Origin: Candidatus Altarchaeota archaeon
GTDB taxonomy: Archaea > Altiarchaeota > Altiarchaeia > IMC4 > QMZM01
Assembly (NCBI GenBank): GCA_016931955.1
Contig: JAFGDV010000038.1
Location: 1-33,103, forward strand
Direction of reading: 5' to 3'
Length of the DNA: 33,103 nucleotides
In this document: positions 1 to 28,308 of the stretch, piece after piece
Numbering within the stretch: position 1 is the stretch's first letter
Layout of the letters: each line of letters opens with the position of its first letter
The notes under the pieces: generated by a model
Seen by the model: only the letters and a program-made list of their open reading frames with translations
What the model was told of the DNA's origin: nothing
Databases searched by the model: none
Translations under genes and position numbers: made by a program

Positions 1-99
1 AAAAGAAACGCGCCCGAAAGAAAAAGGAATTCGCCTACGGCGAATTCAACGGAAGGTAGGGTTGATAAGGGCGGAAACCCGCAGGTGTCTGCCCTTATG
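1..99 (+). repeat. Modular hairpin element, copy 1
   Basis: This is intergenic DNA with no supported gene. A perfect 9-bp stem GAATTCGCC (27-35) / GGCGAATTC (39-47) has a 3-nt loop. The shared block GGTAGGGTTGATAAGGG follows at about 55-71, and an outer stem ATAAGGGC (65-72) / GCCCTTAT (91-98) encloses small inner stems such as GCAG 81-84 / CTGC 89-92. The same modules recur in four other intergenic regions of the window, in the same orientation. The CAACCTTTT-type first stem of the other copies is not seen here; it may be absent or lie left of the window. Function is unknown. Confidence 0.8.
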
Positions 100-2587: not shown

Positions 2588-3166
2588 ATGAATGTAAAAA
2601 TCACCAACAAAAAAAATAATCGGGTTGAATTCAATGTTTCCGGAATCACTGCGAGTCTTGCTAATGCATTCCGAAGGGCTGTTATCTCAGAGGTCCCAAT
2701 TATGGCTATTGAGGATGTAACCTTCTACCAGAACTCATCGATGATGGACGACGAAGTATTAGCCCACAGACTGGGTCTAATCCCGCTGAAGACCGATCCG
2801 GGGGGGATTGAAACCATGCGTGTAAGCTTGAAGTCTGAAGGTCCTGGAACCGTATACTCTAAGGAGCTTAAACCCATGGAAAAGAGGGTGAAAGGTAAGT
2901 CATCTTCTCTAGCAGCTTACGATAAAATACCCATCATGAAACTGACGGAGGGCCAGAGGATCGAGTTGGAGGCAACTGCTCAGATGAGAAGCGGGAGAGA
3001 ACACATAAAATGGCAGGGGGGGCTGGCTTCCTATGAGATAGAGAAGGATGGCTCCTTCAGTTTTTTCGTGGAATCCTACGGACAGATGCCAGTTAATGAA
3101 TTAATAAACAAAACATTCGAAGTATTCAATAAAAAGATCAAGGAACTTAGATCACAACTAAAATAA
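2588..3166 (+). CDS. rpoD: DNA-directed RNA polymerase subunit D
   Basis: Subunit D is the archaeal counterpart of eukaryotic Rpb3 and the bacterial alpha N-terminal domain, and pairs with subunit L to start polymerase assembly. The 192-residue product has the alpha-like dimerisation signature LANAFRRAVISEVPIMAIEDVT, then NSSMMDDEVLAHRLGLIPL. It contains no cysteines, so it lacks the Fe-S cluster domain found in the D subunits of many archaea and represents the short form. It follows rps11 by 6 nt and is followed by tRNA-Leu only 6 nt downstream, so the tRNA may be released from the same transcript. Confidence 0.95.
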   Translation: MNVKITNKKNNRVEFNVSGITASLANAFRRAVISEVPIMAIEDVTFYQNSSMMDDEVLAHRLGLIPLKTDPGGIETMRVSLKSEGPGTVYSKELKPMEKRVKGKSSSLAAYDKIPIMKLTEGQRIELEATAQMRSGREHIKWQGGLASYEIEKDGSFSFFVESYGQMPVNELINKTFEVFNKKIKELRSQLK

Positions 3167-3172
3167 TCACAT

Positions 3173-3321
3173 GCGGGGGTGCCCGAGTCCGGTCAAACAC
3201 ACGTCTTACCCCCTTTAATAACACTAAACATTTTGCCACCCATAAGGCGTTGTGGGCTAAAGGGGCACGGTTGAGGGCCGTGTGGCATAGGCCTGCGCGA
3301 GTTCGAACCTCGTCCCCCGCA
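3173..3321 (+). tRNA. tRNA-Leu(GAG) with an intron in the D-loop
   Basis: The acceptor stem pairs GCGGGGG (3173-3179) with CCCCCGC (3314-3320), with discriminator A at 3321 and no encoded CCA. The anticodon stem is CACGG (3266-3270) / CCGTG (3278-3282) with loop TTGAGGG, so the anticodon is GAG at 3273-3275. The T-stem is 3297-3301 / 3309-3313 with loop TTCGAAC. A class II variable arm lies between, as expected for leucine. The D-arm is split by a 64-nt intron (3197-3260); removing it gives a normal 85-nt tRNA with D-loop GGUCAAAGGGG. Lying 6 nt after rpoD, it probably depends on the rpoD transcript or on a promoter inside rpoD. Confidence 0.93.
3197..3260 (+). other. tRNA-Leu D-loop intron (bulge-helix-bulge)
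   Basis: The junctions form a full bulge-helix-bulge. The central helix pairs GGTC (3191-3194) with GGCT (3255-3258) and includes two G-U pairs. The 3-nt bulges are both AAA, at 3195-3197 and 3259-3261. The inner helix begins CAC (3198-3200) / GTG (3252-3254) and, past one bulged T, continues as ACGTCTTA (3201-3208) / TAAGGCGT (3243-3250). Cutting after the second A of each bulge joins position 21 to position 22 of the tRNA. Most archaeal introns sit at 37/38 in the anticodon loop, so this position is non-canonical. Confidence 0.88.
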
Positions 3322-3445
3322 ACCTTTTCATAAAAGGTTGATCAAAAGGAATTCGCCTAAAGGCGAATTCAAAAGAAGGGTTGGGTTGATAAGGGAGGGA
3401 ACGTAGTTCCCACCCTTATGTATCGAACAACTCGTCCCCCGCAAC
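3309..3445. repeat. 15-bp direct repeat of the tRNA-Leu 3' end flanking hairpin element copy 3
   Basis: CTCGTCCCCCGCAAC occurs at 3309-3323, where it is the T-stem and acceptor end of tRNA-Leu, and again at 3431-3445. CGAAC precedes each copy, directly at the first and two bases further away at the second. The 107 bp between them hold the hairpin element. This looks like the duplicated attachment site left by integration at a tRNA 3' end, or a remnant of a duplicated tRNA tail. No integrase is present here. Confidence 0.7.
3320..3420 (+). repeat. Modular hairpin element, copy 3
   Basis: Stem CAACCTTTT (3320-3328) / AAAAGGTTG (3332-3340) starts on the last two bases of tRNA-Leu. Linker ATCAAAAG leads to GAATTCGCC (3349-3357) / GGCGAATTC (3362-3370). 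A purine-rich tract and GGGTTG follow. The last hairpin combines the outer stem ATAAGGG (3389-3395) / CCCTTAT (3413-3419) with an inner stem GGGAAC (3397-3402) / GTTCCC (3406-3411). It is the cleanest complete copy, about 101 bp long. Confidence 0.85.
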
Positions 3446-3556: not shown

Positions 3557-3922
3557 ATGCCTAGAACGTATGAATTCGAGGACCCAAGGAGGGTGGATTT
3601 GATGGATAGGCTTCGGGAAGCGGCTAGGGTTAATGATGCAGGCATCTGGAAGGCGTTGGCTGAGGAGTTGTCTCGCTCAAGGAAGGATAGGCATGCAGTT
3701 AACCTATGGAAGGTAAACAAATACACGAAGAAGGGGGACACTGTTCTCGTGCCAGGCAAGCTTTTAGGAGACGGTGTCTTGGATCATAGGGTTGATGTTG
3801 CCGCGTTCAAGGTCAGTGAATCAGCTAAGGATAAGGTAGAGGCTGCTGGCGGGAAGGTTATCTCAATCCATGAATTGGTGGAGAAGAACCCGAAGGGCTC
3901 CAATATTGTGATGATTGGTTAA
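3557..3922 (+). CDS. rpl18e: 50S ribosomal protein L18e (eL18)
   Basis: eL18 is a large-subunit protein shared by archaea and eukaryotes and related in fold to bacterial L15. The 121-residue product shows the family pattern: an N-terminal helix region (DLMDRLREAARVNDAGIWKALAEEL) with SRSRKDRHAVNLWKVNKYTKKGDTVLVPGKLLGDG, then a small alpha-beta C-terminal domain ending GGKVISIHELVEKNPKGSNIVMIG. It opens the second half of the ribosomal/polymerase cluster, separated from rpoD by tRNA-Leu and a hairpin element. rpl13 begins one base after its stop. Confidence 0.96.
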   Translation: MPRTYEFEDPRRVDLMDRLREAARVNDAGIWKALAEELSRSRKDRHAVNLWKVNKYTKKGDTVLVPGKLLGDGVLDHRVDVAAFKVSESAKDKVEAAGGKVISIHELVEKNPKGSNIVMIG

Positions 3923-27420: not shown

Positions 27421-27933
27421 ATGAGTGCAGGAATATTATCTGGTACCAAGGTCCTCGTCGGAGAAGGCGACCTGAAGTCTCTACTTCGGGAGAAGGGCTT
27501 CGGCACAGAGAAGGGAGCCCGACAGGAGCTGTCGTTGATAGAAGCCCTCTACTTGCTGGAATCCGAGAAGATGGAGGTCGTCGACGGAAAGAAGACACTC
27601 TCCTTCGAGGAACTCATAGAGATCGGCAACAAGATAGAGGAAAACTTCTACTCAAAGTATCTGGTCTACAGTGACCTTAGGAACAGGGGCTTGTTGGTGA
27701 GAACTGGTTTGAAGTTCGGCTCAGACTTCAGGGTCTACGAGAGGGGGGTTACAGTGAAAAAAGGCCACTCCACACAGTTGGTGAACGTCGTCCCAGAAGA
27801 ATATACTTGCTCTTTCCCGGAGCTTGCTCGGACCATAAGGTTGTCGCAGAACGTGAACAAGGCCATGATCTACGCCGTAGTAGACGAGGAAGGCGACATA
27901 ACCTACTACCAGATAGACCGAGTCAAGCTCTGA
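27421..27933 (+). CDS. endA: tRNA-splicing endonuclease EndA
   Basis: EndA cuts bulge-helix-bulge sites to release tRNA introns. The 170-residue, single-unit protein has the size of the homotetrameric (alpha4) form. The catalytic residues are visible: Tyr106 in DFRVYERG, His116 in KKGHSTQLV, and Lys147 in NVNKAMIYAVV. The C-terminal strand YYQIDRVKL matches. The alpha4 form is thought to need strict bulge-helix-bulge structures, which both tRNA introns in this window have. Its stop lies 42 bp before tRNA-Trp, a substrate. Confidence 0.96.
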   Translation: MSAGILSGTKVLVGEGDLKSLLREKGFGTEKGARQELSLIEALYLLESEKMEVVDGKKTLSFEELIEIGNKIEENFYSKYLVYSDLRNRGLLVRTGLKFGSDFRVYERGVTVKKGHSTQLVNVVPEEYTCSFPELARTIRLSQNVNKAMIYAVVDEEGDITYYQIDRVKL

Positions 27934-27975: not shown

Positions 27976-28153
27976 GGGGCTGTGGGGTAGTCAGGCATCC
28001 TAGCAGGCTCCAGTGAACCTCTTTTTCTTTCCATAAGAAAAAGAAACCACGTACTGGAGCGCTGATCCCCTCCGGGGAGATGATGAACGGAAAGGTACGA
28101 ACCACATGGTTTGGAGGTACCTGCCGATGGGGGTTCAAATCCCCCCAGCCCCA
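27976..28153 (+). tRNA. tRNA-Trp(CCA) with a 105-nt intron
   Basis: The acceptor stem pairs GGGGCTG (27976-27982) with CAGCCCC (28146-28152); discriminator A is at 28153 and CCA is not encoded. The anticodon stem is GCAGG (28003-28007) / CCTGC (28120-28124), and the anticodon CCA is at 28010-28012. The T-arm is GGGGG (28129-28133), loop TTCAAAT, CCCCC (28141-28145). The intron (28014-28118) lies at the canonical 37/38 position. Removing it leaves a 73-nt tRNA. Confidence 0.95.
28014..28118 (+). ncRNA. tRNA-Trp intron with a box C/D-type methylation guide
   Basis: The splice sites form a bulge-helix-bulge: CTCC (28008-28011) pairs with GGAG (28113-28116), the bulges are AGT and GTA, and the inner stem is GAACC/GGTTT. 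Inside, box D'-type CTGA (28062-28065) and box C'-type ATGATGA (28080-28086) flank hairpin TCCCC/GGGGA. CTGGAGC (28054-28060) before the CTGA pairs with positions 31-37 of the tRNA. The fifth base upstream of the box faces C34, the known Cm34 site of archaeal tRNA-Trp. The second C/D pair is degenerate. An extra hairpin CTTTTTCTT/AAGAAAAAG lies at about 28021-28043. Confidence 0.85.
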
Positions 28154-28161
28154 ATCACCCT

Positions 28162-28308
28162 CAACCTTTTCGTAAAAGGTTGACCAAAAAGACGCTGTTG
28201 CGTCTTTTCTGAGTCGAAAACCGTAAGGTTTTCGCTCATCAAAAAGAATTCGCCATAGGCGAATTCAAAAGGAGGGTAGGGTTGATAAGGGCACCTTGTA
28301 CCCTTATG
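28162..28308 (+). repeat. Modular hairpin element, copy 4 (five hairpins)
   Basis: The region between tRNA-Trp and the MBF1 gene is filled with hairpins: CAACCTTTT (28162-28170) / AAAAGGTTG (28174-28182); AAAAGACGC (28187-28195) / GCGTCTTTT (28200-28208); CGAAAACC (28215-28222) / GGTTTTCG (28227-28234); GAATTCGCC (28246-28254) / GGCGAATTC (28258-28266); and ATAAGGG (28285-28291) / CCCTTAT (28301-28307). The second and third are extra compared with copy 3. The 25-nt block AAAAGGAGGGTAGGG... before the last stem matches copy 3 at 23 of 25 positions. Confidence 0.85.

Follow-up and report, generated by a model that had tools for sequence, protein, structure and literature searches.

Introns at non-canonical positions of archaeal tRNA genes are described from the Thermoproteales and other lineages, where a bulge-helix-bulge (BHB) motif covers both junctions and removal of the intron restores the cloverleaf (PMC4090602, PMC4033280). 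Those of the D-arm include introns at positions 20/21 and 22/23, which are already catalogued (PMC4090602). Such introns are mostly tied to splicing endonucleases of the (alpha-beta)2 or epsilon2 type, whereas the alpha4 and alpha2 enzymes are said to cleave the canonical BHB only (PMC4033280, PMC4090602). The Altiarchaeota intron described here shares with them the BHB at both junctions, the restored cloverleaf, the D-arm location and the presumed cleavage by EndA; it differs in its site, the neighbouring position 21/22, in a very short outer helix and in the endonuclease of its host, which is of the alpha4 type only, as judged by sequence. Compared with the canonical introns at 37/38, it follows the same motif logic but sits in the D-loop, without the anticodon arm as outer helix. 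None of the literature searched described tRNA introns from Altiarchaeota. The D-loop intron is a new example of a known intron kind, notable mainly for the simplest type of enzyme in its genome.

The window, the whole stretch of 33,103 nucleotides that was analysed, belongs to a Candidatus Altiarchaeota MAG (G000) of 1.55 Mb that is 92% complete. Positions 3173-3321 on the plus strand read as a tRNA-Leu(GAG) gene with a 64-nt intron in the D-loop (Table 1). The gene is flanked by rpoD (2588-3166) and rpl18e (3557-3922) within the cluster rps13-rps4-rps11-rpoD-rpl18e-rpl13-rps9, and it has the same placement in relatives; the first-pass annotation spoke of a euryarchaeal gene order, which is better put as a Candidatus Altiarchaeota genome. 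ARAGORN called tRNA-Leu(gag) after removal of 3197-3260 and made no call with this segment left in, bearing out the earlier statement that the leucine tRNA is complete only without it; intron-less orthologues likewise indicate that removal restores a complete tRNA. The unspliced gene escaped both ARAGORN and Rfam (cmscan at gathering and relaxed thresholds returned chance matches only), and tRNA counts in such MAGs are therefore underestimates.

Table 1. Coordinates of the tRNA-Leu(GAG) gene, its predicted splicing motif, the presumed endonuclease and the hairpin cassettes (window positions, or locus handles outside the window)
Feature	Position	Strand	Basis or remark
tRNA-Leu(GAG) 5' exon (positions 1-21)	3173..3196	+	sequence; ARAGORN on spliced sequence
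D-loop intron, 64 nt, position 21/22	3197..3260	+	G015 orthologue; BHB and covariation in 13 genomes; model R1
tRNA-Leu(GAG) 3' exon, anticodon GAG, discriminator A3321	3261..3321	+	sequence; ARAGORN on spliced sequence
Central helix, 5' strand GGUC	3191..3194	+	pairs with 3255-3258; 100% paired in 13 sequences
Central helix, 3' strand GGCU	3255..3258	+	pairs with 3191-3194
5' bulge AAA, predicted cut after 3196	3195..3197	+	sequence; AAT variant in G002, G009
3' bulge AAA, predicted cut after 3260	3259..3261	+	sequence; AGA variant in G003
Inner helix, 5' strand	3198..3208	+	90% of cells paired; 4/10 pairs changed on both sides
Inner helix, 3' strand	3243..3254	+	pairs with 3198-3208, U3250 bulged
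Hairpin cassette after tRNA-Leu(GAG), not part of the intron	3322..3445	+	terminal hairpin about 3383-3420; second copy of tRNA 3' end 3431-3445
Terminal hairpin GGGTTGATAAGGG..CCCTTAT, in window	59-99, 3383-3420, 28279-28308		
Terminal hairpin GGGTTGATAAGGG..CCCTTAT, other loci	L159, L164, L171, L172, L177, L179, L182, L190, L193, L195, L196		
EndA tRNA-splicing endonuclease, 170 aa, alpha4 type, triad Y106/H116/K147; presumed enzyme	27421..27933	+	PF01974, TIGR00324, 1a79

One comparison is offered by an intron-less orthologue (G015) that also lies between rpoD and rpl18e, runs continuously across the junction and is identical to the predicted spliced product at 80 of 84 positions. In alignment against it, the 64-nt deletion was the best of all single deletions tried; it falls inside AAA, with four equivalent registers. 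At least six such orthologues, continuous across the junction, were found (G013, G015, G016, G017, G021 and G024). The intron itself occurs at the same point in 13 Altiarchaeota genomes, where the exons are conserved while the intron varies between 36 and 69 nt in length and has an unconserved loop. Retention of the 64 nt as a functional extension of the D-arm would agree with the hairpin being kept across relatives; the absence of the insert from at least six relatives at the same locus, the variable length and loop, and a bulge pattern that is the pattern of splice sites make it exceedingly improbable.

The predicted motif comprises a 4-bp central helix, GGUC/GGCU, in which two of the four pairs are G.U, two AAA bulges and an 11-bp inner helix with one bulged base, U3250, in agreement with the elements listed by the first-pass annotation. 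When the intron letters were shuffled 200,000 times, no shuffle combined the 4-bp helix with an inner helix of 11 bp or more, and a 4-bp central helix between two 3-nt bulges is found in 13 of 13 relatives. The 5' side of the predicted motif is ideal, with its central helix, AAA bulge and long inner helix. Since both bulges are AAA, the cut point is not readable from the G000 sequence alone, and position 21/22 follows the usual convention of a cut after the second base of each bulge. Under this convention, AAT at the 5' bulge of G002 and G009 alters the intron-side base only, and AGA at the 3' bulge of G003 alters one intron-side base only; the variants therefore support 21/22, the position proposed at first reading, although the exact site still depends on the convention.

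The outer helix is weaker. It is formed by C3190-G3262 and C3189-G3263, at best also by U3188.G3264, and measures 1-3 bp in all 13 Altiarchaeota examples, with 1 bp in G014; the 3' site would therefore be less than canonical for an alpha4 enzyme. Of the flanks of a strict hBHBh' motif, the inner helix is strong and covarying, and the outer helix competes with the D-stem, so that the word "textbook" used for this BHB at first reading suits the 5' side but not the outer helix. The same real intron may instead have a relaxed HBh' motif, in which the D-stem 3182-3184/3262-3264 forms in the precursor, the 3' site lies in an asymmetric internal loop rather than a 3-nt bulge, and either the alpha4 EndA or a helper accommodates this arrangement. 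The shortness of the outer helix speaks for this reading, as does the ViennaRNA energy of the D-stem version, which is 2.7 kcal/mol better than that of the outer-helix version; the canonical-only rule for alpha4 enzymes (PMC4033280, PMC4090602) speaks against it, and an outer helix of 2-3 bp may suffice once protein is bound. We consider it a serious option at somewhat less than even odds, and one that would refine, and is compatible with, the preferred explanation of BHB splicing by EndA. Neither version coincides with the minimum-energy fold predicted for the precursor as a whole; that minimum is a third structure, which pairs CCCCUUUA of the intron with UAAAGGGG across the 3' splice site. 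The predicted minimum of the spliced tRNA is not a cloverleaf either, so folding energy decides little. Folding energies do not single out the BHB and were rejected as proof of it.

Covariation among the relatives provides further evidence for the BHB. In the alignment A1, 92.5% of cells are paired, compared to 86.7% in shuffles, which ignore relatedness, and 34-44% in slid versions, a control that leans towards the structure because the structure was partly derived from the same A1 rows; the two controls agree. Two-sided changes occur in 12 cells, a number reached by none of 500 shuffles, and the covariation score of 0.294 (vs 0.196) exceeds that of every one of the 500 shuffles and of every slid control. 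The model R1, built from A1, matched 13 of the 297 archaeal genomes exactly once each, and all 13 are Altiarchaeota. Together, the relatives and the base-pair covariation show an intron that is real and old.

Each of the nine family-f1 genomes with a recovered gene has the intron, as does G014. In another family it occurs in G018 and G023, and their neighbours G017 and G021 are without it. On a tree of six linked proteins this distribution requires at least three changes, and it fits both an intron that was ancestral within Altiarchaeales and one with a small number of gains and losses. Of the 13 genomes, three (G007, G008 and G009) combine the D-loop intron with a canonical 37/38 intron in the same tRNA-Leu(GAG) gene.

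Several other features of these genes were observed. A distant archaeon (G058, L024) has a tRNA-Leu(GAG) gene beside rpoD that contains an unrelated-looking insertion of 29 nt at the same AAA/AAA site of the D-loop and a second insertion in the T-loop; its genome also has a one-unit EndA. Another gene (G036, L019) has an extra D-loop segment at about position 17, a site that differs from 21/22. The D-loop intron has an ACCCC(C) run (3208-3213) immediately inside its inner helix, found likewise in G004, G006, G007, G009, G018 and G023, and with wobble changes in G002. ACCCCC is complementary to the acceptor GGGGGU and to AAAGGGG at the 3' junction; a role as guide or switch sequence was considered and dropped because the run is missing from five of the 13 introns.

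The gene at 3173-3321 is the sole tRNA-Leu(GAG) gene found in the 92%-complete G000 assembly. An intron-less second copy, named at first reading as the finding that would overturn the intron, was looked for in this assembly by a search with the 149-nt gene and by a pattern of the GAG anticodon arm with two mismatches allowed, and neither gave a second locus. This bears on the view of the locus as a decayed tRNA gene carrying a random D-loop insertion, its CUU/CUC codons being read by another tRNA-Leu. Such decay would account for a gene overlooked by standard tRNA finders; it is very unlikely in view of the intact and conserved exons, the covarying BHB that the insert retains in 13 genomes, the identical site in distinct families and the failure to find another GAG gene in G000.

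The genome encodes an EndA-family endonuclease (Table 1), which is its only PF01974 match above the cut-off and scores 129.5 bits with TIGR00324 (NCBIfam endA), against a cut-off of 59.6. The best solved relative is the alpha4 enzyme of Methanocaldococcus jannaschii (PDB 1a79), which matches over the full length (E = 6.7e-39), and the catalytic Tyr/His/Lys triad is invariant in 1a79 and in all archaeal relatives compared. With about 170 aa, one unit and this triad, the protein has the features of an alpha4 EndA, a type assigned by sequence. Nearly all Altiarchaeota genomes with a match have one EndA of about 170-195 aa; a second match in G027 is a fragment below the cut-off. No second subunit and no fused or elongated EndA was found among the Altiarchaeota genomes with a match, none of which has a protein long enough for a fusion of two or three units. 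In the EndA proteins of family f7 (L083-L087, G025-G028), an extra loop is inserted between the catalytic Tyr and the catalytic His; it was not seen in Altiarchaeales.

Per the reviews, the M. jannaschii enzyme is limited to the canonical BHB, whereas its Altiarchaeota counterpart would face a motif with a short outer helix. The Altiarchaeota intron is probably a clade-wide exception to the alpha4 rule, with euryarchaeal precedents. The EndA of Methanothermobacter thermautotrophicus is of the alpha4 type. As this species is listed among the archaea with multiple-intron tRNAs (PMC4033280), the Altiarchaeota intron would probably not be the first case.

Altogether, we propose, with a probability of about 0.93, that 3173-3321 is the sole tRNA-Leu(GAG) gene and that its D-loop intron is spliced by EndA via a BHB. 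The gene would be transcribed with the 64-nt intron inside. In the precursor, the exon GGUC would pair with GGCU at the 3' end of the intron and the 11-bp hairpin would reach into the intron, leaving the two AAA bulges as cleavage sites. EndA, expected to be an alpha4 homotetramer as in M. jannaschii, would cut after 3196 and 3260, and joining of the exons by the archaeal ligase RtcB would be expected to give a normal D-loop, GGUCAAAGGGG. We infer transcription, both cleavage sites, EndA as the enzyme, its tetramer state and ligation by RtcB from sequence. The D-loop intron called in the first-pass annotation is backed by an intron-less syntenic orthologue, covariation, the sole copy and the EndA gene.

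Just downstream of the EndA gene, a tRNA-Trp(CCA) gene (27976-28153, plus strand) undetected by ARAGORN in default mode has an intron of about 105 nt that contains CUGA and AUGAUGA motifs. These resemble the box C/D guide known from archaeal tRNA-Trp introns. By eye, no box C/D element was seen in the D-loop intron of tRNA-Leu(GAG).

A separate feature of the locus is the hairpin cassette that follows the tRNA-Leu(GAG) gene. Among 22 G000 tRNA genes surveyed (by Rfam and T-arm patterns only, an incomplete set), eight are followed, 74-125 nt downstream, by a repeat of their own last 16 nt with 14-16 positions identical, and some G000 tRNA genes have two such repeats; the same identity is reached by 2 of 462 mismatched tRNA pairs, one of which consists of two tRNAs neighbouring in one locus. 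Between the tRNA and the 3'-end copy lie non-coding hairpin modules, often closing in GGGTTGATAAGGG...CCCTTAT, a hairpin that occurs 13 times in G000 and 19 times in G008; the reversed pattern gave no match in any of the 29 genomes. Cassettes also lie downstream of tRNA genes on the G000 contigs C9, C14, C21, C22, C24 and C30, and on C9 the tRNA-Pro gene precedes a tandem array of three hairpin units, of which two are closed by a tRNA 3'-end copy. In 23 of 45 flanked copies, 13-63 nt of the upstream flank recur as a direct duplicate within 8 nt after the hairpin, compared to 4 of 171 controls; such duplicates, with a fixed right end and a variable left end, are also found at hairpin sites away from tRNA genes. 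In the spacer between tRNA-Leu(GAG) and rpl18e, G023 (L053) has an insertion independent of the one in G000; its terminal hairpin is a different one, TAGGGGC..GCCCCTA, after which comes a tRNA 3'-end copy. Eight genomes (G003, G005, G008, G012, G016, G018, G021 and G024) have empty spacers of 14-29 nt.

Cassette hairpin modules were also detected by BLAST inside the canonical 37/38 introns of tRNA-Leu(UAA) (L092), tRNA-His (L103) and L041, with E-values down to 8e-9, and more weakly in the tRNA-Trp intron of the window; 140 shuffled queries gave one hit. The same search found none in the D-loop intron of tRNA-Leu(GAG). By eye, the canonical tRNA-Leu(GAG) intron of G020 (L020) is similar to the modules. 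The modules in canonical introns may represent a route of intron gain.

The cassettes resemble a small repetitive or mobile element that targets the 3' ends of tRNA genes, and no description of tRNA 3'-end hairpin cassettes was found in the literature searched. They may have arisen by tandem duplication through template switching at hairpins or by a DNA integrase aimed at tRNA 3' ends, and a split or duplicated 3'-half function is a possible role. An origin by reverse transcriptase is not supported, because no RVT_1 match was found in the genomes carrying the hairpin elements. The sole IMG/VR match was set aside as a chance match inside a long ORF of a phage contig.

A broader picture that would join the two findings is held only tentatively, and we think it rather unlikely as a whole: a minimal alpha4 EndA would remove an intron with a 1-3 bp outer helix clade-wide, against the canonical-BHB rule, and an undescribed hairpin-terminated element would target tRNA loci and duplicate tRNA 3' ends, its hairpins in canonical introns being a possible intron source. 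If confirmed, the cassettes would represent a novel kind of small repeat or mobile element, and they may matter more than the D-loop intron. The intron would extend the lineages known for non-canonical tRNA introns by a clade that has no splicing endonuclease beyond the simplest type. With 13 natural variants and six or more orthologues that lack the intron, it would be a good system for testing how complete a BHB must be for an alpha4 enzyme, and would equally suit the study of how an intron comes and goes at one site.
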